A stretch of 64,000 nucleotides of DNA from Rugalucina vietnamica (lineage: Eukaryota > Mollusca > Bivalvia > Lucinida > Lucinidae). Both the position numbers and the translations under genes were made by a program. The notes under the pieces are model-generated. The model had not been told where the DNA came from, did not search any database, and was given only the letters and a program-made list of their open reading frames with translations. Location: assembly GCA_964017185.1 (NCBI GenBank), contig OZ024871.1, positions 8,982,214-9,046,213 of the forward strand, given 5' to 3'. Of the stretch, positions 3,101 through 58,400 are shown in pieces. The number at the start of each line of letters is the position of its first letter. Position 1 is the stretch's first letter.

Positions 3101-6100
3101 GTTTGAACAACGTTCAAAACACCTTCATCATGTTCATGAAACTATGTTTTAGAAAAATAAGACATTAACTTAAGTGACAGAAAATGAGAATGATAACGTG
3201 TTAAAACTATTTAGTGATATTCCATTTTTAGCTCACCTGAGCCGAAGGCTCACAGGTGAGCTTATAGGATAGGCAGGCATCCGTCGTCCGTCGTCGTCGT
3301 CGTCCGTCCACAATTTCAAAGAAGAATATTTCTGAAGCTAGTTGGCCGATCTTGATCAAATTTAATGTGAACCATAATTGGGTTGGGGGATTGATGGCAT
3401 TAGGTTTTGGAGCAGATTGTATCAAAATTGTGGTTTCCATGGCAACAGATAGGTCCCATAGACTTACAATGGGAAAAACTAAAAAAATCTTCTTCTCTGA
3501 AACCACTAGGCCCACAGCTTTGATATTTGGTATGTGGCAATGGCTAATGGTCCTCTACATAAATTGTGCCATTCATGCCCCTAGGGTCAAATTTGGCCAC
3601 GCCCCGGGGGGTCGATAGTCTCCATAGACTTACTATGGGAAAAAAATTGAAAAATCTTCTTCTCTGAAACCACAGGGCCCACAGCTTTGATATTTGGTAT
3701 GTGGCAATGGCTAATGGTCCTCTACATAAATTGTGCCAGCCATGCCCCTGGGGTCAAATTTGGCCACGCCCCGGGGGTGGATAGTCTCCATAGACTTACA
3801 ATGGGAAAAACTAAAAAAATCTTCTTCTCTGAAACCACTAGGCCCACAGCTTTGATATTTGGTATGTAGCAATGGCTAATGGTCCTCTACATAAATTGTG
3901 CCATTCATGCCCCTGGGGTCAAATTTGGCCACGCCCCGGGGGGTCGATAGTCTCCATAGACTTACTATGGGTAAAAAATTGAAAAATCTTCTTCTCTGAA
4001 ACCACAGGGCCCACAGCTTTGATATTTGGTATGTGGCAATGGCTAATGGTCCTCTACATAAATTGTGCCAGCCATGCCCCTGGGGTCAAATTTGGCCACG
4101 CCCTGGGGGTGGATAGTCTCCATAGACTTACAATTGGAAAAACTAAAAAAATCTTCTTCTCTGAAACCACTAGGCCCACAGCTTTGATATTTGGTATGTA
4201 GCAATGGCTAATGGTCTTCTACATAAATTGTGCCATTCATGCCCCTGGGGTCAAATTTGGCCACGCCCCGGGGGTTGATAGTCTCCATAGACTTACTATG
4301 GGAAAAAAATTAAAAAATCTTCTTCTCTGAAACCACAGGGCCCACAGCTTTGATATTTTGTACGTGGCAATGGCTAATGGTCCTCTACATAAATTGTGCC
4401 AATCATGTCCCCGGGGTCAAATTTGGCCACGCCCCGGGGGTGGATAGTCTCCATAGACCTACAATAGGAAAAAAACTAAAAAAGTCTTCTTCTCTGAAAC
4501 CACTAGGCTAACAGCTTTGATATTTGGAATGTAGCAATGGCTAATGGTCCTCTACATAAATTGTGCCATTCATGCCCCTGGGGTCATATTTTGTATGTGG
4601 CAATGGCTAATGGTCCTCTAATGGTCCTCTACATAAATTGTGCCAATCATGTCCCCGGGGTCAAATTTGGCCACGCCCCGGGGGTCGATAGTCTCCATAG
4701 ACCTACAATAGGAAAAACTAAAAAAAATCTTCTTCTCTGAAACCACTAGGCCCACAGCTTTGATATTTGGTATGTAGCAATGGCTAATGGTCCTCTACAT
4801 AAATTGTGCCATTCATGCCCCTGGGGTCAAAGGACTAGGGCATTTAACGCCTGATTTCGGCCTCAGATTTTGCTAAAAAATAATTTTTGGAATTTAGGTG
4901 AAAAACTATTCCTTAAAACAGCCATATGTCTCCTCTACTAAAAACAAGAACAAGTACTTCATTTATCCTACAAGCGTTGCCATGGCAACACCCAGAAGAA
5001 CCATAGATAGAGCAAATTCTGCACTTTTTGGTCTATTTTTAGCTCACCTGAGCCGAAGGCTCACAGGTGAGCTTATAGGATAGGCAGGCATCCGTCGTCT
5101 GTCGTCGTCCGTCGTCGTCCGTCCACAATTTCAAAGAAGAATAATTCTGAAGCTAGTAGGCCGATTTTGATCAAATTTAATGTGAACCATAATTGGGTTG
5201 GGGGATTGATGGCATTAGGTTTTGGAGCAGATTGTATCAAAATTGTGGTTTCCATGGCAACAGATAGGTCCCATAGACTTACAATGGGAAAAACTAAAAA
5301 AATCTTCTTCTCTGAAACCACTAGGCCCACAGCTTTGATATTTGGTATGTAGCAATGGCTAATGGTCCTCTACATAAATTGTGCCATTCATGCCCCTGGG
5401 GTTAAATTTGGCCACGCCCCGGGGGGTCGATAGTCTCCATAGACTTACTATGGGAAAAAAATTAAAAAATCTTCTTCCATGAAACCACAGGGCCCACAGC
5501 TTTGATATTTGGTATGTGGCAATGGCTAATGGTCCTCTACATAAATTGTGCCAGCCATGCCCCTGGGGTCAAATTTGGCCACGCCCCGGGCCCCGGGGGT
5601 CGATAGTCTCCATAGACTTACAATTGGGAAAACTAAAAAAATCTTCTTCTCTGAAACCACTAGGCCCACAGCTTTGATATTTGGTATGTAGCAATGGCTA
5701 ATGGTCCTCTACATAAATTGTGCCATTCATGCCCCTGGGGTCAAATTTGGCCAGGCCCCGGGGGTTGATAGTCTCTATAGACTTACTATGGGAAAAAAAT
5801 TCAAAAATCTTCTTCTCTGAAACCACAGGGCCCACAGCTTTGATATTTTGTACGTGGCAATGGCTAATGGTCCTATACATAAATTGTGCCAATCATGCCC
5901 CTGGGGTCAAATTTGGCCACACCCCGGGGGTCAATAGTTTCCATAGACCTACAATAGGAAAAAAACTAAAACAATCTTCTTCTCTGAAACCACTAGGCCA
6001 ACAGCTTTGATATTTGGTATGTAGCAATGGCTAATGGTCCTCTACATAAATTGTGCCATTCATGCTCCTGGGGTCAAATTTGGCCACGCCCCGGGGGTTG

Positions 6101-9100
6101 ATAGTCTCCATAGACTTACTATGGGAAAAAAAATCAAAAATTTTTCTCCTCTGAAACCACAGGGCCCACAGCTTTGATATTTTGTATGTGGCAATGGCTA
6201 ATGGTCCTCTACATAAATTGTGCCAATCATGTCCCCGGGGTCAAATTTGGCCAAGCCCCGGGGGTCGATAGTCTCCATAGACCTACAATAGGAAAAACTA
6301 AAAATATCGTCTTCTCTGAAACCACTAGGCCCACAGCTTTGATATTTGGTATGTAGCAATGGCTAATGGTCCTCTACATAAATTGTGCCATTCATGCTCC
6401 TGGGGTCAAATTTGGCCACGCCCCGGGGGTTGATAGTCTCCATAGACTTACTATGGGAAAAAAATTCAAAAATCTTCTTCTCTGAAACCACAGGGCCCAC
6501 AGCTTTGATATTTTGTACGAGGCAATGGCTAATGGTCTTCTACATAAATTGTGCCAATCATGCCCCTGGGGTCAAATTTGGCCACGCCCCGGGGGTCGAT
6601 AGTTTCCATAGACCTACAATAGGAAAAAAACTAAAACAATCTTCTTCTCTGAAACCACTAGGCCAACAGCTTTGATATTTGGTATGTAGCAATGGCTAAT
6701 GGTCCTCTACTTAAATTGTGCCATTCATGCCCCTGGGGTCAAATTTGGCCACGCCCGGGGGGTTGATAGTCTCCATAGACTTACTATGGGAAAAAAATTC
6801 AAAAATCTTCTTCTCTGAAACCACAGGGCCCACAGCTTTGATATTTTGTATGTGGCAATGGCTAATGGTCCTCTACATAAATTGTGCCAATCATGTCCCC
6901 GGGGTCAAATTTGGCCACGCCCCGGGGGTCGATAGTCTCCATAGACCTACAATAGGAAAAACTAAAAAAATCTTCTTCTCTGAAACCACTAGGCCCACAG
7001 CTTTGATGTTTGGTATGTAGCAATGGCTAATGGTCCTCTACATGAATTGTGCCATTCATGCCCCTGGGGTCAAATTTGGCCAGGTCCCGGAGGTTGATAG
7101 TCTCAATAGACTTGCTATGGGAAAAAAATTCAAAAATCTTCTTCTCTGAAACCACAGGGCACACAGCTTTGATATTTTGTATGTTGCAATGGCTAATGGT
7201 CCTCTACATAAATTGTGCCAGCCATGCCCCTGGGGTCAAATTTGGCCACGCCCCGGGGGTAGATAGTCTCCATAGACTTACAATGGGAAAAACTAAAAAA
7301 AACTTCTTCTCTGAAACCAAAAGGCCCAGAGCTTCTATATTTTGTATGTAGCAATGTTTTGTAGTCCACATTATAAATTGTGCCAGTCATGCCCCTGGGT
7401 CAAATTTGGCCATGCCCCGGGGGTCAATAGTGTCCATGCATAGACTCTCAATTAATTTAAATCTCATGAGCTTACAATGTGATAATCTCTCAGGTGAGCT
7501 ACAGGACCAATGGTCCTCTAGTTTTAAGAAAGCTCTAATTTCCTGTTTATTTCACAGATTTTGCAGAAGTCAGACACCGGGGCTACCACACTGGTTGGCC
7601 AACCGACCGTGGCAGAGCAGCTCATGAAATCCCAACCTGTCAGCAGTGCCGGGACAGAGGGGGCTAACAAACTCGGGGAGGGTCTGACACCCACATCCCC
7701 ACCCCCGACAACACCCAAGACTACACCAACATCAGCACAACAGAAATATGCTGTAACACCATCTGTGGTGCAGGAAGGTTTGTAATAGCTATTTTACTTG
7801 TTAAGCAACATGATGAGGCTTAAAAAAGGTAGCATTCATTAAATGAGCAGTCCCGTGGGAAAACCCAACAATGTGGTTTTCGAACAGGTCTGATACAAAT
7901 CAGGCTGTACAGTCACAGAAGCAGGCTAGAAGCTTGAAGTTTCGGATTTAAGAAGAAGGGGAACTACTATCCGTGTAGCGAAAACAAAGACTTTGATCAG
8001 CTTTGCGGTTACTGCGAAGCTGATCTGCATCTTTGTTTTCGCATATGCAGATTGTTGGTTTTGTCATGAGGCGGCCCAAATTATTGCAGAGTCAAGATCA
8101 GAGTTGCTACCTGTTTCATTGTGTATGTGACATTTGTGTATTATATTTTCCTGACTCATATGTTTAGCTCACCTTAGCCATAGGCTCACAAGGTGAACTT
8201 AAAGGATTGAACTTGAGTCATTGTCTGTGTGTGCATCCTTGGGTGCATCTGTCCACACTTTGAAACATGTATATCTGTGAGACCAGCAGGACTTTATCAG
8301 AAGCATCACTGTGGTGGGGGATTGCCTGCATGGACCTCCTGTTAGATGAAATTTCTCATGTCTTGATGTAACTTATGTATTTTCAGTTGTTCGCCAAGCC
8401 CTGCTCCAGAACCAAGCCCCTGAGATCCAGGCGAAGCTTCTGGCCCTACAGAAACACATGACCCAGCAGAAGCAGCCAGCTGATGGCAGGGACTCGGTGT
8501 CCCCCACCCCCACACCACCAGAGGTGACCAAGACTGAGACACCAGTAGTAGATACATTGAAGACTAAACATAAACCACTGACACAAGAACAGAAAGATGA
8601 ACAATCGAGGTTGGTAAATGGACTCAGTTTCCTTGTACCGGATATAATGAAATGATGTTGAATGCTAAAAAGTAGAGCTGCTATAGGGCCACCTACCAAA
8701 AATGGTAATGAAACATGGAAAGAATTCTTAACTGAGGCCAAGATGCTAATCAAATTGCATCTGTACATGTACACCCTTATAGTTTTTAGCTCACCTGAGC
8801 CGAAGGCTCACAGGTGAGCTTATAGGATAGGCAGGAATCCGTCGTCCGTCGTCCGTCCGTCGTCCGTCCACAATTTCAAAGAAGAATATTTCTGAAGCTA
8901 GTAGGCCGATCTTGATCAAATTTAATGTGAACCATAATTGGGTTGGGGGATTGATGGCATTAGGTTTTGGAGCAGATTGTATCAAAATTGTGGTTTCCAT
9001 GGCAACAGATAGGTCCCATAGACTTACAATGGGAAAAACTAAAAAAATCTTCTTCTCTGAAACCACTAGGCCCACAGCTTTGATATTTGGTATGTAGCAA

Positions 9101-12100
9101 TGGCTAATGGTCCTCTACATAAATTGTGCCATTCGTGCCCCTGGGGTCAAATTTGGCCACGCCCCAGGGGTCGATAGTCTCCATAGACTTTCTATGGGAA
9201 AAAAATTAAAAAATCTTCTTCTCTGAAACCACAGGGCCCACAGCTTTGATATTTTGTATGTGGCAATGGCTAATGGTCCTCTACATAAATTGTGCCAGCC
9301 ATGCCCCTGGGGTCAAATTTGGCCACGCCCGGGGGGTCGATAGTCTCCATAGACTTACAATGGGAAAAACTAAAAAAATCATCTTCTCTGAAACCACTAG
9401 GCCCACAGCTTTGATATTTGGTATGTAGCAATGGCTAATGGTTATCTACATAAATTGTGCCATTCATGCCCCTGGGGTCAAATTTGGCCACGCCCCGGGG
9501 GTCGATAGTCTCCATAGACTAAATATGGGAAAAAAATTCAAAAATCTTCTTCTCTGAAACCACAGGGCCCACAGCTTTGATATTTGGTATGTGGCAATGG
9601 CTAATGGTCCTCTACATAAATTGTGCCAGCCATGCCCCTGGGGTCAAATTTGGCCATGCCCCGGGGGTCGATAGTCTCCATAGACTTACAATTGGAAATA
9701 CTAAAAAAATCTTCTTCTCTGAAACCACTAGGCCCACAGCTTTGATATTTGGTATGTAGCAATGGCTAATGGTCCTCTACATAAATTGTGCCATTCATGC
9801 CCCTGGGGTCCAATTTGGCCACGCCCCGGGGGTTGATAGTCTCCATAGACTTACAATGGGAAAAAAATTAAAAAAGTCTTCTTCTCTGAAACCACAGGGC
9901 CCACAGCTTTGATATTTTGTACGTGGCAATGGCTAATTGGCATAAATTGTGCCAATCATGCCCCTGGGGTTAAATTTGGCCACGCCACGGGGGTTGATAG
10001 TCTCCATAGACCTACAATAGGAAAAAAACTAAAAAAATCTTCTTCTCTGAAACCACTAGGCCAACAGCTTTGATATTTGGTATGTAGCAATGGCTAATGG
10101 TCCTCTACATAAATTGTGCCATTCATGCCCCTGGGGTCAAATTTGGCCACGCCCCGGGGGTTGATAGTCTCCATAGACTTACTATGGGAAAAAATTCAAA
10201 AATTTTCTTTTCTGAAACCACAGGGCCAACAGCTTTGATATTTTGTATGTGGCAATGGCTAATGGTCCTCTACATAAATTGTGCCAATCATGTCCCTGGG
10301 GTCAAATTTGGCCATGCCCCGGGGGTCAATAGTCTCCATAGACCTACAATAGGAAAAACTAAAAAAATCTTCTTCTCTGAAACCACTAGGCCCACAGCTT
10401 TGATATTTGGTATGTAGCAATGGCTAATGGTCCTCTACATAAATTGTGCCATTCATGCCCCTATGGTCAAATTTGGCCAGGTTCCGGAGGTTGATAGTCT
10501 CAATAGACTTGCTATGGGAAAAAAATTCAAAAATCTTCTTCTCTGAAACCACAGGGCACACAGCTTTGATATTTTGTATGTGGCAATGGCTAATGGTTCT
10601 CTACATAAATTGTGCCAGCCATGCTCCTGGGTTCAAATTTGGCCACGCCCCGGGGGTAGATAGTCTCCATAGACTTACAATGGGAAAAACTAAAAAAAAC
10701 TTCTTCTCTGAAACCAAAAGGCCCAGAGCTTCTATATTTTGTATGTAGCAATGTTTGGTAATCCCCATTATAAATTGTGCCAGTCATGCCCCTGGGTCAA
10801 ATTTGGCCATGCCCCGGGTGTCAATAGTGTCCATGCATAGACTTTCATTGGTCGATTCTCAATTAATTTAAATCTCATGAGCTTACAATGTGATAATCTC
10901 TCAGGTGAGCTACAGGACCAATGGTCCTCTAGTTTTATACCCCCGGCATTTATGCCGACGGGGTATATAGTTTTCGCCTTTCCGTTTGTCCGTTCGTATG
11001 TTCGTTTGTTTGTTCGTTCGTTCGTTAGTTCAGTAGAATTTGCGTCAAAGTTTTGGTTAAAGTTTCTCTAATGGTGTATATCTCAATCACCAATGGTCAG
11101 AAACTATTCATATTTGGACCATAGGTACCCTATAGGGTTTGCTTTATATCCATCACTTTGGGCCCCTGGGTCCATGCCCGGGGGTGGGGGTAGAGATCAA
11201 AATCTAGGTCACCTTTAGATTGCGTCAAAGTTTTGGTTAAAGTTTCTCTAGTGGTGTATATCTAATACACCAATGGTCAGAAACCATTCATATTTGGATC
11301 ATAGGTACCCAATAGGGTTTGCTTTGCTTCCATGACTTCGGACCCCAGGGTCCATGCCCGGGGGTGGGGCTAGAGTTCAAAATCTAGGTCACCTTTAAAT
11401 TTTGTCCAAGTTTTGGTTAAAGTTTCTCTAGTGGTGTACTTCTCATAAAACAATCATCAGAAATCATTTATATTTGGATCATAGGTACCCTTTAGGGTTT
11501 GCTTTGTTTCCGTCATTGCAGACCTCTGGGTCCATGCTTGGGGGTGGGGCTAGAGGTCAAAATCTAGGTCATCCATGAAGTCTGCTTTTTTAATGTGTTT
11601 TTTCCCCCCTATAAATCTATATCTAAATAACAAACATTATTCCGCTTTTGGATCATAGATACTCTGTGGGGTTGACTATGGCACCGAACCCTATGGGGTT
11701 CCCCTGGGGTGGGGATAGAGGTCAAAATCTAGGACACCTTTTTAATATGCTAGTTTTTGTAAATACGACATCATACTCAAGGATCTTAGAAGTCAACATT
11801 TTGGACATCTTAGTTACATTATTTTAGAATGACATTCTATTTAAATTTTCGATCTAGGATGGAGGACCTGACCCTTAATGTCCGTGTATGTTAAGTCCTA
11901 GATCGAGTATACAAGTCAGCTCTGTATACTACTGTAAATTTTATAGATGTCATTCTAAAATGTAGGCAAAGTACTTTGCAAATGTACATTTCTATGATGT
12001 ACTTGTGAAGGGTACTTGTAAATCTTTGATTCAGGACTTGAGGTTTAATGGTCAATGTGTGTGTGTGGGGGGGGGGGGGGGGGGGGGTATACGTGCCTCT

Positions 12101-15100
12101 CAAGGCACTTTTTCTAGTTTTTTTTTTTTTTTTTTTTTCGTTTGACTCCAGAGTTTCAGATCAGCTGTCTGGTCATCCTTGTTTCATATTGTCTATCTTT
12201 GGTCACATGATCATGAGAGTCTTATTTCAGATTGGCAATCTGTGGTTGGGATTATGTGTACCTTGTTTCATATTGGCTATCTATGGTCATGTGATGATGA
12301 GTATCTTGTTTCAGATTGGCTATCTGTGGTCATGTGATCATTAGAATCATATTTCAGGTTGGCAATCTGTGGTCATGTGATCAAGAGTATCCTGGACAAG
12401 ATTGACAAGGAAGAGAAGCAGGAACAGAAGCGACAAAAGAAGGCGGAGTCTGCAGAGGAGAAACAGAAGAGGATCGCAGCAGCAAAGATACAGGGGATAC
12501 TCTTCAAACACAAGGAAGCCCTCAAGAAAGAGATACAGAGAAAAAGAGCTCTCAGTGAGAAAAATATAAACCATGAAATTCAGGTATTAATCTTTTCTAG
12601 GTATTTGAAGGTTTGTTTAATAGGAAATTATGTAAAGAACTGAAGTCAAAGAAACTGTGTCACTCTTTTATTTGGTAGAATCTATATTAGCATGCTAATG
12701 TAGTGACAATATGAATAACTGACATGAATCTTTGTTATCTTGACATGGTGTTTTCTGTATTTTCAATCATCTGCAAATGGTAAATCAAATTAGCAATAAA
12801 TACAAGAATTGAAACTAAGTTTGCTTGTCAGTACTTGAAATAAATTGAGCCACTGCATAAGAAAATCAACAAAATGCTTGGGCGAAAACAAAGGCGCAGA
12901 TCAGATTCGCGGTAACTGCGAAGCTGATCAGCGCCTTTGTTTTCGCTGCATGGATAGTACAATCTTTCTTCTTCCTAAATCCGAAATTTCAAGCTTCTAG
13001 CCTGCTTTTGTGACTGTACAGGCTGGTCTGTGTCAGACCCGGTCAGAACCCAAATTGTTAGTTTTCTCATGCACAGGCTCAATTTTAAATTTTGTTTCAT
13101 AAAAAATGCCATACTGTGGCTACCAACATGACAAAGTGTATAACATTCTCTAATATTTGCCCTCACTGTAGATGGAGATAGGTGAAGTCCTACAGCAGCA
13201 ACAGCCAGCAGGAGCCAGGAAGAAACTCCAGCAGACTGCCAAGGGTCTGGTCCTGGTCCACGACAAGAAGGGCGGCCCAGGCCTGCCCCCGATGCCTCCG
13301 ACAAGCGCCCAGGTCGCCGAGGCTGCCAAGGCAAAGAAAAAGAAGCAGAAGATAATCTCCACTGGGGGAGTGAAGCCGCTGAACCCTAAGAAGAAACTGT
13401 ACTGTATCTGTAAAACACCATATGACGAATCAAGGTAAATATACTTTTGGGGTCCAAGTTTTCTGACAGACGGGCCTTGGTAACAGTCACGATTCCTGAT
13501 CAGACTGCTCCTGCTTTGGTCCACACTGAATGCCATTTCAGTTTCTCCTTAAAGCATTTAGACAATTTTTGTGTGGAAAATGCATCCGAATTGTAGGTCA
13601 GTTGTGAGACAAACTTAGCAAAATTAAGTAGTAGGATGTATTTACTATTCAATAAAGAGAAATTTTATTTACAACTTAATATGCTCAACATGATTTGCTC
13701 AACATGATTTGAAAGAATTAATTTTATATAAGCACTTTTATGAAACCCTTTATCCTGCCTTCAGGTTTTACATTGGTTGTGATTTGTGTTCTAACTGGTA
13801 CCATGGAGAATGTGTTAACATATCAGAGGACCAGGCCAAGTATATTGACACATTTGTGTGTGACGACTGTAAACGTCAGCAGGAGACGGCAACAGAGGAA
13901 CTGTATTGTCTGTGTAGGACTCCCTATGATGAATCTGAGTAAGTTGATTTACATTAAATTGTCTATTCTATAGTCTAATCTCTAGGCTTGGTTGTGATTT
14001 TGAGGGCTGTAAAAATTGACGAGTAATATGAAAACTTCATACACCACAAATTGCCTAGAAGCTTCCTTGATGTAGCATTTAGGCCTCTTGTAAATCAGAG
14101 GTTTATGGTTCGATTTTGGGCTTCTCCAGTCTTTCAGATTAGACTTAGACTTTAAACAAAGGTCCCATTCTTTCTTTTAGCCAATTTAAGATTAACATTT
14201 TGTCAGTTTCTTGCAATATAGATTTGCACTAAGTAGCGGTAATCTGCCACCTGGAGGCTTGGAAAAAAAGTAGTTAGGATAATTAATGGCTAGAGCTGTT
14301 GATGTAAAGCATTAAATCACACCATTGATTATTGTAGGTTTTACATTGGCTGTGATCGTTGTCAAGACTGGTTCCATGGCCGCTGTGTGGGTCTCAGTCA
14401 GAAAGAAGCTGACCAGCTGGATACCTATATCTGTCCTAACTGTCAGAGGAAAGACTCGGCCGACCCCACCAACCTGAAAGAGTTGACAGATGATGACTAT
14501 GTACTGCTACATAGACTCATGAAGAGTTTACTGGTGGGTAGTGATTACTTTGAAAGTAAAATTTATTTGTGTGTTTCAGTGAATCAGTTGTGCCGCAGTT
14601 CAAGAAAAGTGGTATTCGGGGATTCCGTCCAGGTCTGACACAAACTTGCCTGTGCGGCCACAGACGTTGGCCATACATGTGATATCTCCCGATCTCGGCG
14701 TATTTTAGGGATTTCAAGGGCCCACTCCCGACGGTCCCCCGATCTGCCGAAGTCCCCTATTTGAGCTGTTTGCAGTTGTTTTTTTTATCCAACAGTCCAA
14801 TTTTTAACTTATAGGATGGTAAATACGGTAATTGACTTGAAGACGCTGCGTGATATCTTGACCCAGATTATGTGTATATTACCTGTGGCTATTTTCGGAT
14901 GTGTCATAACGTGTGAATAATTGGACTATCAATACTTGATGTTTTTACAAGAGGGATTAAATCTGATTAATTGGCTTAACAAGTCTAGTGTCAGCTATTT
15001 AATTGCTCATCAACATGTGTGTTCTGAAAGTGTAATGAAAATAGACCCTGTGTTAAAATAACTGTAATCAATAACGGAATGACAAAAAAACTATCATGGA

Positions 15101-21621: not shown

Positions 21622-21651
21622 ATATTTTTATGATCGCCTCCTGATATGTTT

Positions 21652-22590: not shown

Positions 22591-22617
22591 GTTCTTAGGT
22601 AGAAACTTTCTGGAATA

Positions 22618-27086: not shown

Positions 27087-27659
27087 CTCCTCATCTGGTC
27101 AGGACGTATACTGCGGCTTCTCATTCGTAATCTGTAATATTTGAAGCATATCATCAGACAAAAATAGGAACATGATTCTTCCCTTTCAAGCAAACTCAGT
27201 ATACACAAATCTATTACTTCAGTGCTCACATGTACAGTAATGGAGCGAAAAAACATAATTTAGACATCACAGTTCAACAGATTCCCCTCCCGGGTCAGAG
27301 GAAAATCGACATATTCAACCACCAAGGATGGTTTACTGTTCTTAGATATGCAACCTTAACTCATTTCACAAACTAACAAGTTTTCATTTTGCATATCAAT
27401 AGCACACTGTCCTATCACCCCCCACTCCATTGACCCCCAAAAAGTCTTGTCCCAAAAATTGATTGGACAACATAAACTGAGGCTCCAAGCTGCCACCTAC
27501 CACTCTCAAAGCAGATGCTCTACCATATGTGCCCCTGGGACCGGTCAGTTAGTGGTTACAAAAACTTGCTCCAAATATTGGCTGAAAAAAAAGATTGAAC
27601 AAGTATGTGAAATGAGTTTGTACAGTGAAAGAAGAGAGTTAGTACAGTTAAAGGCTAAA

Positions 27660-29250
27660 TAAAAGCGCTGCAGGCATGCATGATACCCCGCCACACAAAT
27701 TTAATTTAGCAAAAATGTTTGTCAATAAATTCTCAAGATAAAGAGCAGAACAAAATTTTGTCATAAATGAAGGACCATAACTCTGTATACTTTGATAAAA
27801 TTTACCCATCTTCAATCCCAAACCACTACTTCCTGATTTGAACTTTTATACAAAGTTTGAAGGAAATTGGTTGATAAATGCACAAAACAGAGGCAGAAAA
27901 TGAAATTTTAATGTAAATCATGGGCCAAAACTCTGTACTTATTTAACGTAATTTATTCATTTTCAATCCCAAACCACTCCTTCCTGATATGAACTCCTAT
28001 ACAAAGTTTGAAGAAAGTCGGTCAATAAATGCTCAAGACAGAGTCCGGAAACAAAATTTTAACGTAAATCAAGTGCCATAACTCTGTACTTATTTGACAA
28101 AATTTACCCATCTTCAATCCCAAATCATTCTTTCCTGGTATGAACTCCTATACAAAGTTTGAAGAAAATCGGTCAATAAATGCTCAAGATAGAGCCCAGA
28201 AACAGAATTTTAACGTAAATCAAGGGCCATAACTCTGTACTTGTTTGACGAAATTTACCCATCTTCAATCCCAGACCACTCCTTCTTAGTATGAACTTCT
28301 ATACAAAGTTTCAAGAAAATCGGTCGATAAATGCTCAAGATAGAGCCCGGAAACAAAATTTTAACATAAATCAAGAGCCATAACTCTGTATATATTTGAC
28401 GAAATTTACCCATCTTCAATCCCAGACCACTCCTTCCTGGTATGAACTCCTACACAAAGTTTGAAGAAAATCGGTCAATAAATGCTCAAGATAGAGCCCG
28501 GAAACAAAATTTTAACGTAAATCAAGGGCCATAACACTGTACTTATTTGACGAAATTTACCCATCTTCAATCCCAGACCACTCCTTCATGATATGAACTC
28601 CTATACATAGTTTGAAGAAAATCGGTCAATAAATACTCAAGATAAGAGCCCGGAAACGAAATTTTAATGTAAATCAAGGGCCATAACTCTGTACATATTT
28701 GACGAAATTTACCCATCTTCAATCCCAGACCACTCCTTCCTGGTATGAACTCCTACACAAAGTTTGAAGAAAATCGGTCAATAAATGCTCAAGATAGAGC
28801 CCGGAAACAAAATTTTAATGTAAATCAAGGGCCATAAATCTGTACTTATTTGACGAAGTTTACCCATCTTCAATCCCAGACCACTCCTTCATGGTATGAA
28901 CTCCTATACAAAGTTTGAAGAAAATCGGTCAATAAATACTCAAGATAGAGCCCGGAAACAAAATTTTAACATACATCAAGGGCCATAACTCTGTACTTAT
29001 TTGACGAAATTTACCCATCTTCAATCCCAAACCACTCCTTCCTGATATGAACTCCTATACAAAGTTTGAAGAAAATCGGTCAATAACTGCTCAAGATAGA
29101 GCCCGGAAACGAAACGCTGACGGACGGACAGACAGACGGACGGACGGACGGACGGACGGACGGACAGACGGACGGACGGACACTCGAACGCAATTTTTTT
29201 TTTTGAGGGTATAACATAATACCCCGCACTTTTTTAAGTGGCGGGGTATA
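27660..29250 (-). mobile_element. Third Helitron/Helentron-like family (TATACCCCGCCAC hairpin, ~151-bp tandem core)
   Basis: On the minus strand: 5' hairpin TATACCCCGCCACTT...AAGTGCGGGGTATT, a TCCG/TCTG microsatellite (29120-29185), about nine ~151-bp monomers (period points near 28070, 28221, 28371, 28523, 28675, 28825, 28976), then GGCGGGGTATC (inverted 5' arm) and a GC-rich tail ending TTTTAT. Borders are fixed by the empty site at 29706. The target is a run of six A/T pairs with at most a 2-bp duplication. No coding capacity. Confidence 0.82.
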
Positions 29251-29269
29251 AAAACCTCTACCTCTACCC

Positions 29270-29369: not shown

Positions 29370-29427
29370 ATTTGATTCTGAACCCATTAGAATGGCTCGC
29401 GGCTCATTTGATTCTGAACCCATTAGA

Positions 29428-29853: not shown

Positions 29854-29924
29854 GTTTTGCTTGTGCGCATGGTGTGTTAGTACTTAAGAAAGATAAGAGG
29901 TGAAGAAGTCCAGAGATAAAAAGG

Positions 29925-36600: not shown

Positions 36601-39600
36601 TAGTCCTCTACGTTTCATGTGACTTTTGTCCTAATCCTTCATTTTGATTGGTTGCAGGGGCCCCATATAGGGCAAAATTTTGAAAAACATTCAAAAATCT
36701 TCTTCTCAGAAACTGTCAAGGGGATCAAGCCTATACTTTGTATACATGTTCCTGACAGTGGCCTCTACATAATTTGTGTTTTTTATTCCAGGCGGATAAG
36801 AACTCTGGTTGCTATGGCAACTTAAAGTTTCCATAGACTTATAATGGGGAAAGTGGAAATCGGCTATTTTTCCGCTATAATTGCAGACATTTGAATTTTG
36901 TTTTTGCAGAAATGTTTATTGAGTAGTGTTTGACGTTTCTTGCGAGTTTTGTCCTAATCCTTTATTTTGATTGGTTGCTGGGGCCCCATAAAGAGCAAAA
37001 TTTTGAAAATAACATTCAAAAATCTTCTCCTCAAAAACTGTCAAGTGGATGAATCCTGTACTTTGTATACATGTTCTTGACACTAGCCTCTACATAATTT
37101 GTGTTTTTTATTCCAGTCGGATAAGAACTCTGGTTGCTATGGTAACTTTAAGTTTCCATAGACTTATAATGGGAAAAGTGGAAATTAGCTATTTTTTGAA
37201 AACTATTGCAGCCTGAGATCTGAAAAGTGGTAGATGCAAACAACTAATGGACTAGATGAAGGTATATGATTAATTTAGGTCAAGGTCATCTCTTGACCTT
37301 GGCCGGTCTGTCGTCCATACACACTTTTCAAAGATTTTTTTCTCTGAAACCACTTGGCCAATCAAAGCCAAATTTTATATGAAGCATCTATAGGAAGTGG
37401 GAACCAATGTGTATATAAATACTCCAAGTCACATGACCAAGATGGCCACCATGCCCATATATGGTAAAAACCCTTAAAATATCTTCTTCTCCAGAACCGG
37501 TGAACGGATTTCAACGAAACATTGCATGTAGTATGGATGACTCAAGTACTACAATGTATATATAAAACATGACCCTGTGGTGACCTTGACCTATTTTATG
37601 GCAAGGTCAACATAGGTCATCAATGCATTTGAATGGGGAAAAGTTTTAAAATGTCATTTTAAGTGAAAGTCTTGCAGGAAATAATGGGCAGTAGGACTGA
37701 AATTTAATGATTCTGAAAAAAAAATGGACCCCAGGGGCTCATCTGCTTTTAAAATGTTATTTGAAGGGGAAAATCAGCAGGAAATTGGCAAATGGACAGA
37801 ATATTGATTATTCTGAAAAAAGAAAATGGCCCAAGGGCTTCATCTGCCCCTGCACTGGGGTTAAATCCATAATATTCAAATAATGTTTATTGGTATATGA
37901 AGCAGATCTCAGGTGAGCGTTTATAGGACCATTGGTCCTCTGGTATTTTGAGAATTTTCTGTTTCAGAATTATTAGTGAAATCATAAATTTGTGAGTGAG
38001 TACTTGTGCAGTCTCTAAAGCTTATAGTAGCTCTTCAACATTGAAAGATTGAACTTCAAATTCAAAAAGCAACAAATTGTCAGTATTAGCCCAAAAATGT
38101 ACTCGCAAACATCTACAAATTTACAGTACTTGTCATTTTGTGTTAATCCAAGAATAAATAATATTGGCTACAAAAAAGAAACATCTTGAAATTTGATTGT
38201 ATCATTGTAAATAAGTTGTTAACTGTATAATTCAATGATATGTCCCTGTAACTTCATCATCCAACTCATTGTAAAACACTCTTTGCTTTAAAATATACAG
38301 ACATATCACACAACAGACATATCACACAACTTTACAGTGTCCATATTGTTGTAAAATTTAAATGAGTGTCAAAAGTTGTTGATGGTATTTCAGATTTGTT
38401 CCCTTGAAGATGTTGAAAGAATTATGGATGAGACCAGAGATGCAGTAGAATATCAACAGGTAACAAATTAGCTGTGTTATGAGAAAACCAACAATGTGGT
38501 TTCCAAACAGATTCAACACAAACTGAGCTGTATGAAGCACGGAGGATGGCTAGAGTTTGAAAATTTTGGATTCAAGAAGAAGAGGGATTGTACTATCTAT
38601 GTAGCAAAAACAAAGGATAATCCTGGTGCAGAATGAGGTGTCCCATCTGGGGATATCACTCTGATCAACTTTGAAAGTTACAAAAATTAGTGATAAATTT
38701 TGTCAATTTTTGTGTAAAATTTCGCATTTAATCAGAAATTAAAATCTCTCCTGATGCCCCTAAAAATCAAAGTGGATGCACCCAAAAATGATAATGATTT
38801 TAAAGTCTGCATATGAAATGACATAGGCTGTTGCAAACAGCCCAGATGTGAAGTCACAGAACGCGGCATCCCATCTGGGGCTATTCTGTTTGCTTAGAGG
38901 AATTTCATTGAAAAATTGAATAAAATTTAAAAATCACTCCTGAATCTGTCTAAAAATGAAAGTGGTCTTACCCTGTTTTATTCCCGTGTTGTAGGAGATA
39001 GACGACCTTTTATCAGGAGGTTTATCACAACAAGAGGAGGAGGATGTACTAGAGGAACTCGACCAAATTATACAGGTAACATTCATTGTGTTGAATTACC
39101 TCTGTTCATAGGAACATATAATATGGTGACTTTTCCCATATATTGCATTTTTTGAAATACATGTATAAGCCTTAATTGTACATAGTTCATTCTGGCCCAA
39201 AGTTCATCCTGGCTCAAAATTTTAGGGAGAAGTGACTTCTCCCTTGAGGGATTTTAGGGAGAAGTTTGCTGATCTTAGGGAGAAGTGAGAGCGTTTACTC
39301 GATACCACCCCCCCCCCTCAAACAAAAAATGTTTATAGACTACAATAATTAAACGCCAATAGAATCTGTTTTGTCTATACACTTAACTTTTATAGCTAAA
39401 CAATAAAACAGCAATAGAATATGTTGTCATATTGAAAGAAACAGAACCAAATAATTTTACAGTGATACATGTAATACTATATGCTATGATGAAATCCTGC
39501 TAGGGTTACAGGTTAACCTAATAACCTAATTATAATGCTATCTTTGGGTCCACAGAATCAGACAGTGATATAAGTGAATTGTTTTATATTGTGGTTGCTT

Positions 39601-41951: not shown

Positions 41952-42111
41952 ATATATTGACCATTATGTTAAGTGTAACATGTACATTCAGTAAATCATT
42001 TTGCTATAAAACCAGACTGTGGTTACGTTTTGTTCCCAGTTACCATCATTGAGTTCTCTCAAGGTATTTCATTTCTAAAAAATATTTCTGTTGAACTTGG
42101 AAACATGTTTT

Positions 42112-42480
42112 TTGTTGCACCTTAGCCACGAGGCTCACAAGGTGAGCTTGTAGTATATCTATTCTCCATCTGTTTTCTATCTATTTGCCATTTTCAAAGA
42201 TCCTGAAACAGCTTGCCCAATCACGGTCATATGATAAGTTGCCATCATGCCCATATTTGGTAAAAATCTCCAGAACCCAAAGCCCTATCATCATGAAAGT
42301 TTGTATGTAGCATTTTGGACTGAAACTCTAGAAAGTATATTATTAGTCATGTCCCAGGAATGACCTAGACCTACTATATAGCAAGGGCAACTTTAAATGC
42401 CTATGAAATTACATGGGGGAAATTGTGACAATGGCCAGGGATGCAAATAAGTAGGCAAGAACAACAATGGTATATCTGAT
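42112..42480 (+). repeat. Degraded AGCTCACC-family element
   Basis: CACCTTAGCCACGAGGCTCA and CAAGGTGAGCTT are remnants of the 5' hairpin, followed by pieces of the 456-bp type core (CATGCCCATATTTGG). No 3' end found. Confidence 0.55.
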
Positions 42481-49900: not shown

Positions 49901-52080
49901 CTTCCAAATAACAAAATTTTATGTCTGAAGCAATCTATGTGGCTGTACAGACCAATTTGTATAAGATTTCTTGATGTGGCTCTGTTCATTTTATCAAAGT
50001 CAAGTAAAATACTGACACTTTTGTTGATGACAGAATACCATTTGAGCTGCATTGTGAGAAAAACAGATTTTTGCTATGCGAAAACAAAGACACAGATCAG
50101 CTTTGCAGTAACTGTGAAGCTGATCAGCGCTTTTGTTTTCGCTACACGGATAGAACAATTTCTCTTCTCCTTAAATACGAAATTTGAAGCTTCTAGCCTG
50201 CTTCTGTAACAGTACAGGGCGGTTTACGTCGGAGCTGGTCCGAACTCCCGAAGACCGGTTTTCTCGCGTCGCAGCTCATTTAATCTTGATTCTTGGATTA
50301 GAAGTTTCAGTTTACTGTTCAGTGACATTCCATTTAAACCCAAAATTTATTCTGAAGAATATGACGATTTTATAACAGCTAGAGACTTACAACAATACAT
50401 TCTATTCTTCTCTTGAGCTGTCCCATAACCACCTCTTCAGCTCGAATTTTTCTGTTTTCGACGTCAAGTTGCCACACTCGTAATGTGGATCTATAAAATA
50501 TTTTCATAATGCAAAATATGCAAGTTGCCACACTCGTAATGTGGATCTATAAAACATTTTCATAATGCAAAATATACATGTATGAGCTGTGTCATGAGAT
50601 GCCCTGTTTTGCTTATGTGAATACTAGGTTACAATGATGCAGATCAGATATGCAGTCAGTAGAACAATCAGAACTTTTGTCTTGATATATTAATATACCA
50701 TCTTGGAGAATGAAAGTTTTAAAAAGATATCACACTAGATGAGCATTAAACTGTCCTTAAAGCCAGATGTACGTAATTGACCTCACGGTAGAAAATTTTT
50801 ATTTTTGGCATGTGAGTGTATTTTGATGTCCTGCATACAAAAATGAAAAGACCAGAGGACCAATGGTCCTGTAAACGCTCACCTGAGATCAGCTGCATAT
50901 ACCAATAAACATGTTTGAATATTATGGTATTTAACTCCAGTGCAGGGGCAGATAAGCCCTTGGGCCATTTTCTTTTTTCAGAATCTTCAATATTCTGTCC
51001 ATTTGCCAATTTCCTGTTGGCTTTTTCCTTCAAATGACATTTTAACAGTTTTCCCAATTCAGATGCACAGGCAACCCATGTTGACCTTGCCATAAACTTG
51101 GTCAAGGTCATCACAGGGTCATGATTTATATATACATTGGAGTACTTTAGCCATCGATGCCTCACGCCAAGTTTCCTTGAAATCAGTCTATTGGTTTCAG
51201 AGAAGATGATTTTTGATGGGTTTTTACCATATATGGGCATGGCGGCCATCTTGGTCATGTGACCTAGATTATTTATATACACATTGATTCCCCCATTCTA
51301 TAGATGCTTCACTTAAAATTTGGCTTTGTTTGGCCAAGCGGTTTCAGAGGAGAAGACGTTTGAATATTATGGAAATATACATGTACGTGTATATTGCCCC
51401 GGGGTGGGGGCACATGAGCCCCTGGGGTCCAATTTTTTTCAGAATCATTAATATCCAGTCCTATTGCCCATTTCCTGCAAGACTTTCACTTTAAATGACA
51501 TTTTAAAAGTTTTCCCCATTCAAATGCATTGGTGACCTATGTTGACCTTCCCGTAAAATAGGTCAAGGTCATCACAGGGTCATGATTTATATACACATTG
51601 TAGTGCTTGAGCCATCAATGCTTCGTGCCAAGTTTCGTTGAAATCGGTCAACCGGTTCTGGTGAAGAAGATTTTTGAACGGTTTTTACCATATATGGGCA
51701 TGGCGGCCATCTTGGTCATGTGACCTGGATTTTTTATATACATATTTGTTACCCCTTCCTATTGATGCTTCACATAAAATTTCGCTTTGATTGGCCAAGC
51801 GGTTTCAGAGGAGAAGATGTTTGAATATTATGGAGATATACATGTATATTGCCCCGGGGTGGGGGCGGATGAGCCCCTGGTGCCCAATTTTTTTCAGAAT
51901 CATTAATATTCAGTCCTACTGCTCATTTTCTGCAAGATTATTCCTTTAAATGACAATTTAACAATTTTTCCCTTTCAAATGCATTCGCGACCTATGTTGA
52001 CCTTGCCGTAAAATAGGTCAAGGTCATCATAGGGTCATGATTTATATACACATTGTAGTGCTTGAGCCATTAATGCTTCA

Positions 52081-52113
<33 letters not shown>

Positions 52114-55100
52114 CGGAGAAGAAGATTTTTGAAGGGTTTTTACCATATATGGGCATGGCGGCCATCTTGGTCATGTGACCTGGATTATTTATATACACAT
52201 TGGTTCCCCCTTCCCATAGATGCTTCATGTAAAATTTGGCTTTGATTGGCCAAGCGGTTTCAGAGGAGAAGATCTTTGAAAATGGTGGACGACGGACGGA
52301 CGACGGACGGACGACGGACGGACGGACGACGGAGCATGGGTATACTATAAGCTCACCTTGTGAGCCTGACGGCTCAGGTGAGCTAAAAACGGTATCGTTC
52401 CGAGCTTGTTTTCGAGATATCGGCCTTCAAAATCGTCAAATTTTAGAGCGACAATACATTGACGTCAATGTAAAATGCCATTTTTAGACCCCCTTTTTGT
52501 TAATTTTCTTGATATATTTAAAAAAATCAACGGTAGGATTTTTTAAAAAATTGATATGTATAAGAGAAATTCCTGAGCTACCGGTAGATAACGAGAAAGT
52601 CCTTAGTTACCGGATTCGTTTTCCTGCTATAAGCGTGCGAAGAGAGGTAGTCGTTGCTGAATTCAGTACGTTTTATGCGCGACGTCGATTTTGCGCCAAA
52701 ATCTCCGACGCTATTTAGTATTCAATTTTGCTAACTGTCGAGCATATGATGTTTTCCTCGGGATAACATGTCCACAATCTATATTTTGAGCAAAAATAAT
52801 AAATAATATCAATTGCTTTACATTTCTGAAGTCCTCTGCATAATTGTATGTACATAGTTTCGTATTCCAAACGTAAACTGACGCTAGAAATGACGTTTTG
52901 AGCGAAAACTGACGTTAAGAATGCGGCGTAAAAATGACGTTTCGACCCTTAGATACGCACGTTCCTTTGAGCGCCTTCAATTACGTACATCTGGCTTTAA
53001 CATCTGATAAACACAAGCCAATTTAAGAGATTTGAAATTCAAATTATTGATGCCTGGCCCCAAGGTTATAAAACTTTTTTCATGCTCAGCTCAGCTGAGA
53101 CTTAAATATATCCTGCTCATAAATGTTAAAATGCCAACAATTGTTGGCATTTTAACATTTATTAGCAAGATTAATTACAGGCTTTGGAGTTCTAAAGTAC
53201 TTCAGTATTTATGAGGATTTGAAATTTCAAGCTCAGCTGAGTTGAACATGAAAAAAGTTTTATAACCTCAGGGCCAGGTGGTAACACTATTTTACACTAT
53301 TTCATCCACTTTTCTTGGCTGTACAATTAAAATCAAATTTAGGATTGGTTGGGTTAAAACAATGTAGATCAGTAGTTACTTACTCTCCTCCTGTTACGAA
53401 GACATTGTCATCTTTCTTTGAGAAACAGATACACAGTGTGTTGCCGGCACTTTTCACCTGAGCCTGGTCTCCGCAGATAGGCTTACCATCAGCCATATTC
53501 CATATCACAACACTGAAATTATATGAGCTCTGCCATTAGAAAACCAGTCTTCGGAGGTTCTGACAGTTTCAACACAAACCAGCCAGTACAGTCACAGAAA
53601 GCTAGAAGCTAGAAAATTCGGTTAAAATGTATATCCGTAAAGCCAAAGCAAAGGTATTACATTATTTTCTTTTCTTTGTTCCATCTTTCACGACTCTTTG
53701 TTTTCCCATATGTAAAAATCAGTCTTTCTCACAAGGCAGCCCATATTTCAAGAACATAATTCTAGGGTACAGACCAAACATTTTTATATCCTTTTTTAGC
53801 TCACCTGAGCCGTTAGACTCACAAGGTGAGCTTATAGGATGGCCATGATCCGGCGTCCATCGTCGTCCGTCGTCGTCCACCATTTTCAAAGATCTTCTTC
53901 TCTGAAACCACTTGGCCAATTAAAGCCAAATTTTATATGAAGCATCTATGGGAAGGGGGAACCAATGTGTTTATAAATAATCCAGGTCACATGACCAAGA
54001 TGGCCGCCATGCCCATATATGGTAAATACCCTTCAAAAATCTTCTCCTCTGGAACCGGTGGACCGATTTCAACGAAACTTGGCATGAAGCATCGGGGACT
54101 AGAGTACTACAATGTGTTTATAAATTATGACCTTTGGATGACCTTGACCTATTTTACGGCAAGGTCAACATAGGTCGCCCATGCATTTGAATGGGGAAAA
54201 TTGTTAAAATGTCATTTGAAAGGCAAATCTTGCAGGAAATGGGCAAATGGACTGAAGGTAGGTAATTCTGAAAAAATTTGGACCCCAGGGTTGGTCTGCC
54301 CCCACCCCGGTGCAATATACATGTATATTACAAAAATATTCAAAGATCTTCTTCCTTGAAACCACTTGGCCAATCAAAGCCAAATTTTATATGAAGCATC
54401 TATAGGAAGGGTGAATCAATGTGTTTATAAATAATCCAGGTCACATGACCAAGATGGCCGACATGCCCATATATGGTAAAAACCCTTCAAAATTCTTCTT
54501 CTCCGGAACCACTGGACCGATTTCAACAAAACTTGGCATGAAGCATCGGGGACTAGAGTACTACAATGTGTTTATAAATTATGACCTTTGGATGACCTTG
54601 ACCTATTTTATGGCAAGGTCAACATGGGTCGCCCATGCATTTGAATGGGAAAAATTGTTAAAATGTCATTTGAAAGGCAAATCTTGCAGGAAATGGGCAA
54701 ATGGACTGAAGGTAGGTAATTCTGAAAAAAAAATTGGACCCTAGGGGTGGGTCTGCCCCCACCCTGGGGCAATATACATGTATATTAAAAAATATTCAAA
54801 CATCCTTTCCTCTGAAACCGCTTGGCCAATCAAAGCCAAATTTTATATGAAGCATCTATAGGAAGGGGGAACCAATTTGTTTATTAATAATCCAGGTCAC
54901 ATGACCAAGATGGCCACCATGCCCTTATATGGTAAAAACCCTTCAAAATTCTTCTTCTCAGGAACCACAGGACCGATTTCAACGAAACTTGGCATGAAGC
55001 ATCAAGGACTAGAGTACTACAATGTGTTTATAAATTATGACCTTTGGATGACCTTGACCTATTTTACGGCAAGGTCAACATAGGTCGCCCATGCATTTGA

Positions 55101-55417
55101 ATGGGAAAAATTGTTAAAATGTCATTTGAAAGGCAAATCTTGCAGGAAAAGGGCAAATGGACTGAAGGTAGGTAATTCTGAAAAAAATTTGGACCCTAGG
55201 GGTTAGTCTGCCCCCACCCTGGGGCAATATACATGTATATTACAAAAATATTCAAAGATCTTCTTCTCTGAAACCACTTGGCCAATCAAAGCCAAATTTT
55301 ATATGAAGCATCTATAGGAAGGGGGAACCAATTTGTTTCTTAATAATCCAGGTCACATGACCAAGATGGCCACCATGCCCTTATATGGTAAAAACCCTTC
55401 AAAATTCTTCTTCTCCG

Positions 55418-55450
<33 letters not shown>

Positions 55451-58400
55451 TGAAGCATCGGGGACTAAAGTACTACAATGTGTTTATAAATTATGACCTT
55501 TGGATGACCTTGACCTATTTTACGGCAAGGTCAACATAGGTCGCCCATGCATTTGAATGGGGAAAATTGTTAAAATGTCATTTGAAAGGCAAATCTTGCA
55601 GGAAAAGGGCAAATGGACTGAAGGTAGGTAATTCTGAAAAAAATTTGGACCCTAGGGGTTAGTCTGCCCCCACCCTGGGGCAATATACATGTATATTACA
55701 AAAATATTCAGAGATCTTCTTCTCTGAAACCACTTGGCCAATCAAAGCCAAATTTTATATGAAGCATCTATGGGAAGGGGGAACCAATTTATTTCTTAAT
55801 AATCCAGGTCACATGACCAAGATGGCCACCATGCCCTTATATGGTAAAAACCCTTCAAAATTCTTCTTCTCTGGAACCACTGGACCAATTTCAACGAAAC
55901 TTGGCATGAAGCATCGGGGACTAGAGTACTACAATGTGTTTATAAATTATGACCTTTGGATGACCTTGACATATTTTACGGCAAGGTCAACATAGGTCGC
56001 CAATGCATTTGAATGGGGAAAACTTTTAAAATGTCATTTTAAGTGAAAGTCTTGCAGGAAATGGGCAGTAGGACTGAATATTAATGATTCTGAAAAAAAT
56101 TGGACCCCAGGGACTCATGTGCCCCAGCCCCGGGGCATTATACATGTATATTACCATAATATTCAAACAACCTTTCCTCTGAAACCGCTTGGCCAATCAA
56201 AGCCAAATTTCATATGAAGCATCTATAGAATGGGGGAATCAATGTGTATATAAATAATCCAGGTCACATGACCAAGATGGCCACTATGCCCATATATGGT
56301 ATAAACCCTTCAAAAATCTTCTTCTCCGGAACCGGTGGACCGATTTAGAAGAAACTTGGCATGAAGCATTGATGACTCAAGTACTACAAAGTATGTATAA
56401 ATCATGACCCTGTGATGACCTTGACCTATTTTAAGGCAAGGTCAACATGGGTTGCCTATGTATTTGAATGGGTAAACTGTTAAAATGTCGTTTGAAGGGA
56501 AAAACTTATATGGACAGTATATTGATTATTCTGAAAAAAAAATGGCCCAAGGGCTTCATCTGCCCCTATACTGGGACTATTTTCTATATCATTCGTATAT
56601 ACAGCAGATCTCAGGTGGGCGTTTACAGGACCTTTGGTCCTCTTGTTTTCATTCTCATCGCCAGTGTATTAGAAGTTTAAGTATATTTTTTGTTGTTGTT
56701 GTTGTTGTTGTGTTTTTTTTTGCTTTAAATTTTATACTACATGGCCAATCACTTGCAAAAGTCTTGAACTTTTAAATCATTTTGATTTATGAAAACTTGA
56801 AATGAATTAAGGAAAACAAAGACAGTTTTAACGCATATATCTATAATCTTTAAGCCTGGTGTTCTATTTATGGGCTATAGGCAAACAGCATGCCTCAGAT
56901 GTGACGCCGCAAAGCGCAGTGTCTAATCTGGGGCTATTCCATTCGCTTGAAGCAATTTTATTGAAAAATTAAATGAAAATTTAAAATCACTCCTGATGCC
57001 CTATAATTGCAAAAGGACTAATCAAAATGATAATGATGAGAAAGTCCATTCATCACAAATGGGTTAAGTTTCGTTCCTTTACATCAGGAAAACATGTCCG
57101 TGAAATGTATACCCCCTTATACCCCAATTTTATATAGTAAAACTGGGGTATGCAGGGGTATACCTATTTTTCTTATTTTTGCTCCAAAACATAGATTGTG
57201 GGTACTTGCTAGTACTTGCTAGAACTGCCTCGGCGAGGCAGTTCTAACGTGTACCCACAATCTATGTTTTGAGCAAAAATAAGAAAAATATCAAAATGTT
57301 TTCTACTGAAAATTTTACAATTTTAAAAATCTCTATATATTGCATGGGCATGTTTTCATAATAACTTACCTGCCGTCATCACATCCTCCGAGAGAGGCCA
57401 GGTAGAGGTTGTTGGGGGAGAACGCCAGAGCCTCAATCTTCACTTTATGTATGAGCTTGAGCTGGTAGAGTTGTTGTCGTGATCGGTAGTCCCATACAAT
57501 AATGGGAGCCTGGACAAGAAATACAATCTCAGAATACAGTCTTCATGAATAGTGCAAGTCTGTCAGACAAAACCAGCAAAATCTTCTTCTGTCTGACAAA
57601 TATTTTATGATTTCAGACAAATGAGCCACCTCATGGGAAATCCAACAATGTGGTTTTCAAACAGGTCTGACAAAAACCGGCCTGTACAGTCATAGATGGC
57701 TAGAGACTGGAAATTTTGGATTTAGACAGTACAGAAACTGTACTATCCATGCAGCGAAACCAAAGAGGCTGATCAGCTTCGCGGTTACCGCGAAGCTGAT
57801 CTGCATCTTTGGTTTCGCATATGCATATGCATATTGTTGGTTTTCTCGTGAGGCGGCTCAAATGTCTGTCAAAAATTACCAAAATTACAATAATTGAGTG
57901 TAGAACTGTCCTACAAAATTGGTTTTGTCCTGCAAAAACTTGAAATGTGCTAGACAGCTGTCCTCCAGATGGAAAAAGATTTTGCAAAGATGAGATTAAG
58001 CTTGTCAAAGGGCTCTTTGAATATGCATTTTACTGTTTTGGTTAAAAAAATGAATATTGGGCAGAGTATAACTATTCTGCCTCGGGTGCAAAAATCAAAG
58101 CATAATAAATTAGCAAAAAGAAAAAGCAACAAGTATAAAGCCACCTAAAAAGTTAACTCAGTTCACTTCTAAACATACATGGTAAGACTGTTCAGACCTT
58201 GCTCAGACCCGTCTAGATGAGCAATGCTATCATTTTGATATGAACAAATTCATATGACTAGAGAGCTAGTGTATACCAAGAAGCCCATGTGTGTCCTCTG
58301 TCCTGAAGCAATGAGGTCTCCATCTTTGTTTGACACAGCTATACAGGTCACATCATCTGTATGACCCCAGAGCAATTCTGGATGTTTCTTGGCACGAATA

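Follow-up and report, generated by a model that had tools for sequence, protein, structure and literature searches.

Satellite-carrying repeat families of the bivalve Rugalucina vietnamica as probable Helentrons, with an autonomous partner for one of them

In a 64,000-nucleotide stretch of the lucinid bivalve Rugalucina vietnamica (C3:8982214-9046213; hereafter the window, meaning the whole stretch analysed), three repeat families, A, B and C, are built on one plan with different termini, which raises the question of what kind of element they are and whether a single machinery moves them all. The window contains six copies of family A, of which one is truncated, along with two decayed A pieces; B is present in two copies and C in one. 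These copies look like non-autonomous Helentron-type elements resembling HINEs and DINE-1; a long coding frame was absent from them, the longest listed frame that overlaps them having 178 amino acids. In this study, we consider it very likely that the families are Helentron-type rolling-circle transposons and that a Helentron with the same ends, encoding a Rep nuclease, a PIF1-like helicase and a C-terminal endonuclease, mobilises family A.

The autonomous partner of family A, with the same ends and a satellite-like array, is new. A search with the Rep domain PF14214, in which 150 of 409 candidates were scored, yielded open frames of up to 3,542 amino acids. Around the Rep match at C5:54465837, a complete autonomous A element of 13,071 bp was delimited (C5:54459549-54472619), which consists, in order, of T5, the A hairpin, a TCCGTCG tract, a 454-bp array of 3.2 copies, a frame of 2,621 amino acids, the A 3' subterminal repeat, a hairpin and CTGG. 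The frame, scanned in three pieces, matched PF04843 (which we take to be OTU-like), DUF6570, Helitron_like_N, REP_ORF2-G2P, PIF1 and Exo_endo_phos, all above the cut-off, the last of them barely (24.6 vs 24.5 bits). The A 5' end (T5, hairpin, TCCG or TCCGTCG tract and 454/455-bp array) was present in all six coding copies read. The A 3' end was found in seven of eight coding copies, lying about 6.7 kb past Rep in the first and occurring in six of the seven others, with differing flanks beyond. Five further coding copies fell into two subfamilies that are about 79-81% alike. The Rep part of the C5 element shared 80-93% identity with loci L053-L058 and no more than 40% with the other matching Rep loci, and three coding copies on different contigs (L067 on C5, L077 on C4 and L080 on C2) were 98.6-99.1% identical over 1,300 bp. 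Moreover, the window A copies that begin at 52384 and 53798 were 91.4% and 88.1% identical, respectively, to the coding copy L078 over the first approximately 1,300 bp, array included. These sequence comparisons suggest that the coding copies with Rep, helicase and endonuclease most likely move family A. The preliminary description of the window had likened all three families to Helentrons and HINEs and had pointed to Rep/helicase relatives with the same ends as the thing to look for; such relatives were found for A, none were found for B or C, and the Helentron identity is supported by the coding elements that share A ends, tract and array and by empty sites without duplication.

In element orientation, A, B and C share the order T or T-run, 5' hairpin, spacer, GTY-step microsatellite, tandem core and inverted copy of the 5' arm; behind the inverted arm, only A and B carry a hairpin followed by CTAG, CTGG or CTTG. 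The 5' hairpins begin with AGCTCACCTGAGCC in A, TATACCCCCGGC in B and TATACCCCGCCAC in C, each being more stable than all of 300 mononucleotide shuffles, and subterminal inverted repeats of about 11-13 bp with a complementary 5' arm were present in the three families. The microsatellite follows the hairpin after 14-36 bp (six window copies measured), with steps of CGTC/CGTCC in A, CGTT/AGTT in B and GTCC/GTCT in C. Among 47 copies with recognisable hairpins in the window and the fetched loci, a GTY run of at least 20 bp was found on the top strand in 38 (12/16 A, 18/22 B, 8/9 C), compared with 0/47 on the opposite strand, 0/47 after shuffling and 181 of 20,000 random window segments; eight of the nine other copies had a broken or shortened tract, and the decayed copy at 8166 had none. 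The terminal hairpin, the microsatellite behind it, the inverted arm and the T-rich surroundings had all been proposed beforehand and were borne out. For A and B, the claimed CTAG, CTGG or CTTG was present at the 3' ends that were found, the copy at 3230 having none, and the hairpin before it was only modestly more stable than shuffles; in the A copies compared, the arms of this hairpin are conserved and its loop letters vary. The microsatellite position had been singled out as the most unusual part, whereas GTCY-rich tracts in this position are a published feature of DINE-1 (PMC2374699) and oyster HINEs (PMC7492417), and the plan, this position and a GTCY-type motif included, is also described in Calliphora (PMC3630058) and for Helentrons and HINEs (PMC4067079).

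The target sites point in the same direction. A T precedes the 5' end in 16/16 A, 22/22 B and 9/9 C copies with a recognisable hairpin, and by pattern in 11 of 12 C loci. The window C copy occupies one of two tandem duplicates of its flanks (27380-27663 vs 29430-29714 at 96.2%; 29250-29394 vs 29710-29854 at 98.6%). At this site no base was gained or lost, because the joined flanks, GAGGTTTT plus TTAGCC in element orientation, equal the empty duplicate GAGGTTTTTTAGCC exactly. At a second locus (L090), C splits the two Ts of GTTAGAAC, giving GGGTACTTGT/TAGAAC, and the repeat hosting it reads GTTAGAAC intact in nine of the 12 matches compared. In L026, where a B copy hosts an A element, the junction has two additional Ts relative to the closest intact B (two to four relative to most others aligned), and an element of a fifth family nested in L027 left one. 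At the four empty sites, two of them of C and one each of A and the fifth family, no target duplication beyond these extra Ts was found; Helentron insertion without duplication is the published picture (PMC4067079). A B copy in the window (10932-10936) and a C copy in L089 (1480-1513) immediately follow A 3' ends, the T-run after an element end serving as the target.

A second autonomous Helentron showed the whole blueprint. It spans 17,285 bp (C12:18210437-18227721) and begins with T, a hairpin starting TATAGCCCCGC (0/300 shuffles as stable), a TTCCGTNA tract and a 151-bp array of 16 copies. Its Rep frame of 3,542 amino acids contains Helitron_like_N, DUF6570 and a C-terminal Exo_endo_phos (43.4 bits), the domain scan covering the frame apart from approximately 1.4 kb where the helicase is expected, and the element closes with GCGGGGCTATA, a 6-bp hairpin, CTAG and then T. 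A 21-bp stretch of its 5' end occurred 519 + 517 times in the genome (control 0 + 0; genome-wide motif counts cover 1.09 Gb in 47 contigs). The fifth family, nested in L027, follows the same plan with TATGTCTCCCCCCGACAGGG, a CTGT tract, a 156-bp array and CTAG. Hairpin, tract and array follow one another in this order in five families or more, whose termini differ (A, B, C, TATAGCCCCGC and TATGTCTCC).

The cores have monomers of 165, 325 and 456 bp in A, 180 bp in B and 151 bp in C; among the periods reported earlier, 165, 456, approximately 179 (here 180) and 151 bp were recovered, and that of approximately 290 bp was not found. The three A monomers are related to one another, 0/300 shuffles being as good for every pair. 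In a comparison of cores against 200 shuffles (15 pairs, both orientations), the C monomer matched the 151-bp array carried by the second autonomous Helentron with a score of 154 (best shuffle 72, 0/200) and another 151-bp array further downstream with a score of 66 (0/200). The two 151-bp arrays matched each other (score 73, 0/200), and the downstream one matched the A 456-bp monomer (score 76, 0/200) and is followed by an A 3' end, the 5' hairpin of that element not being found. All of these significant matches had the same orientation. Direct comparisons of C with A cores were not significant, and 137/200 and 183/200 shuffles were as good as the A 165-bp monomer against the two 151-bp arrays in the same orientation. 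The B core had no significant link to the other cores, with 8 to 47 of 200 shuffles as good. The A and C cores thus look like distant relatives connected through intermediates, with B unlinked, and the earlier statement that the families have no shared core sequence was wrong for A and C. A match between the A 456-bp and B 180-bp monomers (2/300, in one of 20 comparisons) is not claimed as a link. A hidden Markov model of the A core, run on the A-masked window, ranked an A remnant first; a B copy followed at E 0.09 and C monomers at E of at least 0.17, which is too weak to count alone.

Motifs of B and C were counted across the genome. The B motif TATACCCCCGGC, which in the copies read marks the 5' end and recurs in inverted form close to the 3' end, occurred 2542 + 2560 times (reversed control 7 + 3), corresponding to about 2,500 elements if each keeps both motifs and to more otherwise. 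Twenty B places (16 short, four long) were chosen from the first 100 listed for having both ends nearby; hairpin, tract and CTAG, and a T outside both ends, were found in 20/20. At one B-ended locus (L015) the inner arm was different, the tract consisted of CTGT and the repeat unit was 115 bp long. Another (L025) is a B-ended element of 3,961 bp with frames of 414, 310 and 219 amino acids, by eye perhaps a nested retroelement. The C motif TATACCCCGCCAC occurred 424 + 442 times (control 3 + 3). Hairpin and GTCC/GTCT tract were present in 10 of 12 C loci and the 151-bp array in nine; the atypical loci had another interior (L083), a broken hairpin (L088) or no array (L094). The C 3' end was found in six of the 12 loci and in the window, with CTTTTAT preceding the flank every time.

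Searches for partners of B and C gave the following. Around the Rep loci of clusters c40 and c45, neither a B nor a C end was present within 1.3-2.1 kb upstream and approximately 5.3 kb downstream of the frames; the sole match, with one mismatch, lay in an unlike repeat. A candidate 10-kb B element (C1:18116685-18126950) was set aside, no Rep/helicase-like frame being seen by eye among its frames of at least 90 amino acids in the 6 kb read. In pattern scans, A and B ends were absent from viral contigs and A ends from prokaryote genome contigs. The preliminary description had proposed that one replication machinery mobilises all three families, and one enzyme might indeed act in trans on A, B and C by recognising a shared shape (hairpin, subterminal repeat and 3' hairpin) rather than a sequence. 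The common architecture and the T-flanked ends of the three families are in keeping with this, as are the TATACCCC start of B and C beside the TATAGCCCC start of the second autonomous element, and the B and C copies immediately behind A 3' ends. However, the Rep parts of the A-ended and the TATAGCCCC-ended autonomous elements are 33% identical, each lineage has its own ends, and for one family the literature gives as a rule that the subterminal repeats agree in 11 bp or more (PMC4067079). With no partner found for B or C, the single machinery was not upheld, and we regard the shape-reading enzyme as improbable. Very probably, B and C are moved by Helentrons related to, but different from, those of A.

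Several observations weigh against the Helentron reading set out above. For family A, the A end was missing from the 3' slice of one coding locus (L068). The similarity of the 165-bp copies to the coding copies is confined to the region of the 5' end, where the best piece measures 74-89 bp, and to the last 3' bases, and no coding copy of their kind was found among the coding copies read; by their sequence, the 165-bp copies are a separate A subfamily. The 3' hairpins are modest, shuffles being equally stable in 28/300 cases for A, 7/300 for B, 24/300 for the TATAGCCCC element and 15/300 for the fifth family. Family C has no CTAG and no convincing 3' palindrome, and it is filed as Helentron-like rather than as a proven member because 125/300 shuffles fold as stably at its 3' end. 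For B, the mode of insertion was read from flanking Ts, the empty-site comparison covering A, C and the fifth family. Finally, no coding partner of B or C turned up beside the small minority of Rep loci whose two sides had been read.

Three further explanations fare less well. Canonical Helitrons, with 5' TC, 3' CTRR and an A^T target, would account for the CTAG ends and 3' hairpin of A and B, and oyster elements of mixed features have been reported (PMC7992393). Neither 5' TC nor an A^T target was found, however: the 5' ends are AGCTCACC or TATACCCC, the flanks are T and T, and the coding partner has an endonuclease domain, which makes this explanation very unlikely. It is also highly improbable that B, C or both are foldback elements or miniature inverted-repeat transposable elements (MITEs) moved by a cut-and-paste transposase. 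The palindromic 5' end and its inverted 3' copy do resemble inverted repeats, and pearl elements have been described as MITEs (PMC5139131), but the 3' copy is subterminal, the two ends differ and the two empty sites of C are without duplication; terminal inverted repeats with a fixed-length target duplication were found in neither A nor C. An origin of the arrays as ordinary satellites that recombination has spread, with the ends as chance neighbours, as the similarity in length of 151-180-bp monomers to bivalve satellites in the literature might suggest, can practically be set aside, since ends and tract occurred together in all 20 B places (chosen for both ends), hairpin and tract in 10 of 12 C loci, nine with the array, and the empty sites of A and C contradict it.

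For the Helentron-type elements, transposition would start with Rep nicking the 5' end beside the hairpin, whereupon one strand would be displaced; the 3' hairpin with CTAG or CTGG would terminate the transfer, and the displaced strand would be joined to the target at TT. As inherited 5' parts, the GTY microsatellite and the array would travel along and change in length by slippage and unequal exchange. The machinery had been supposed to seed both microsatellite and core. Such seeding at each insertion is unnecessary because hairpin, GTY tract, array and gene already lie together in the coding elements, and inheritance with slippage suffices.

Comparable systems have been described. Cg_HINE of Crassostrea gigas (PMC7492417) likewise has a 5' subterminal repeat with complementary arm, a GTCC/GTCY/GTCK microsatellite in several elements, a satellite-like array, a 3' subterminal repeat, a palindrome and T-rich/TT insertion without duplication. 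DINE-1 and the Helentrons of Drosophila and mites (PMC4067079, PMC2374699) share subterminal repeats, a 5' inverted repeat, a GTCY microsatellite, central repeats, a 3' hairpin, TT insertion and a Rep/helicase/endonuclease partner, whereas their sequences differ and the arrays here reach 13 copies in a window A element and 16 in a coding element. Pearl/BIV160-type bivalve elements (PMC5139131) are, by their description, alike in their modular ends and satellite-like core of approximately 160 bp. In the oyster, ten autonomous Helentrons were reported that could not be related to the abundant satellite-carrying HINEs (PMC7492417). Another oyster study recorded no autonomous elements, regarded the Helitrons as probably inactive and gave a microsatellite in only one element bearing subterminal inverted repeats (PMC7992393). 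Unlike the unlinked oyster HINEs, family A includes coding copies in which its ends, tract and array are all present. No later link between an autonomous element and HINEs was found for bivalves or other molluscs, judging by titles and abstract openings.

The window elements are listed in Table 1. The elements reported earlier are real; however, 50852, 22954 and 27660 proved to be the 3' ends of minus-strand copies, the two decayed A pieces had not been listed, and the copy placed at 3226 has a genuine 5' end (at 3230) and stops without a 3' end.

Table 1. Coordinates of the probable Helentron-type elements and the related empty site in the window.
Feature	Position	Strand	Description
Family A copy	3230..4831	+	5' hairpin, microsatellite, 165-bp array; no 3' end; right border approximate
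Family A copy, complete	5041..7521	+	165-bp array x13; end CTAG
Family A copy, complete	8788..10932	+	165-bp array x11; end CTAG; 3 Ts, then B copy
Family A copy, composite	36280..37943	+	325-bp array, GTCGTCC-like remnant, 456-type unit; end CTGG
Family A copy	50852..52384	-	455-bp array; end CTGG; 5' end at 52384
Family A copy	53798..56645	+	456-bp array; end CTTG
Decayed A 5' end	8166..8330	+	GTY tract absent; right border approximate
Decayed A 5' end and core unit	42107..42347	+	
Family B copy	10936..12117	+	hairpin, CGTT microsatellite, 180-bp array, subterminal inverted repeat, hairpin, CTAG
Family B copy	22954..24097	-	ends as in the other window B copy (CTAG); array decayed
Family C copy	27659..29250	-	hairpin, GTCC microsatellite 29119-29181, 151-bp array 27721-29114, subterminal inverted repeat, end CTTTTAT
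Paralogous empty site (tandem duplicate of C flanks without C)	29430..29854	+	junction 29710-29714

The composite A copy resembles a fusion of two A elements, with its GTCGTCC-like remnant near 37305. Other features were also observed in the window. A repeat family of approximately 230-250 bp (7839-8086, 12833-13092, 15754-15984, 21369-21630, 25475-25725, 41702-41958 and 45808-46059) has a strong central hairpin beginning GCAGATCAGCTTCGCGGT, occurs in both orientations and has at least about a dozen more copies, approximately 73-92% alike among the matches listed. Another repeat (35536-35767, 42648-42779, 57082-57324 and 59311-59555) has TATACCCC-rich foldback arms beside a GGGTAC...GTTAGAAC hairpin, and the C element of L090 is inserted into a copy of this hairpin. 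On the minus strand, 30565-33282 is an open frame of 905 amino acids, by eye like the endonuclease/reverse transcriptase of a non-long-terminal-repeat retrotransposon. By eye, positions 1-13500 contain exons of a gene resembling a Q-rich chromatin protein, and the A and B elements there are seemingly intronic.

In conclusion, the valuable part of these findings is the tie between satellite-carrying elements and an autonomous Helentron, which the oyster work lacked. Because the same order recurs in five or more families that differ in their termini and in two unlike autonomous elements, one may tentatively ask whether the top-strand GTY microsatellite and the 150-180-bp array, instead of being passengers, have a function in Helentron replication, in which case satellite DNA in this genome would be a by-product of a Helentron origin module; we think this possible but rather unlikely, and if it were true, the roles might be strand opening, Rep loading or escape from silencing. 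Since the coding elements carry the same ends and array, and three of them are 98.6-99.1% identical across contigs, it can now be tested whether a recently active rolling-circle transposon spreads satellite arrays and perhaps also makes them.

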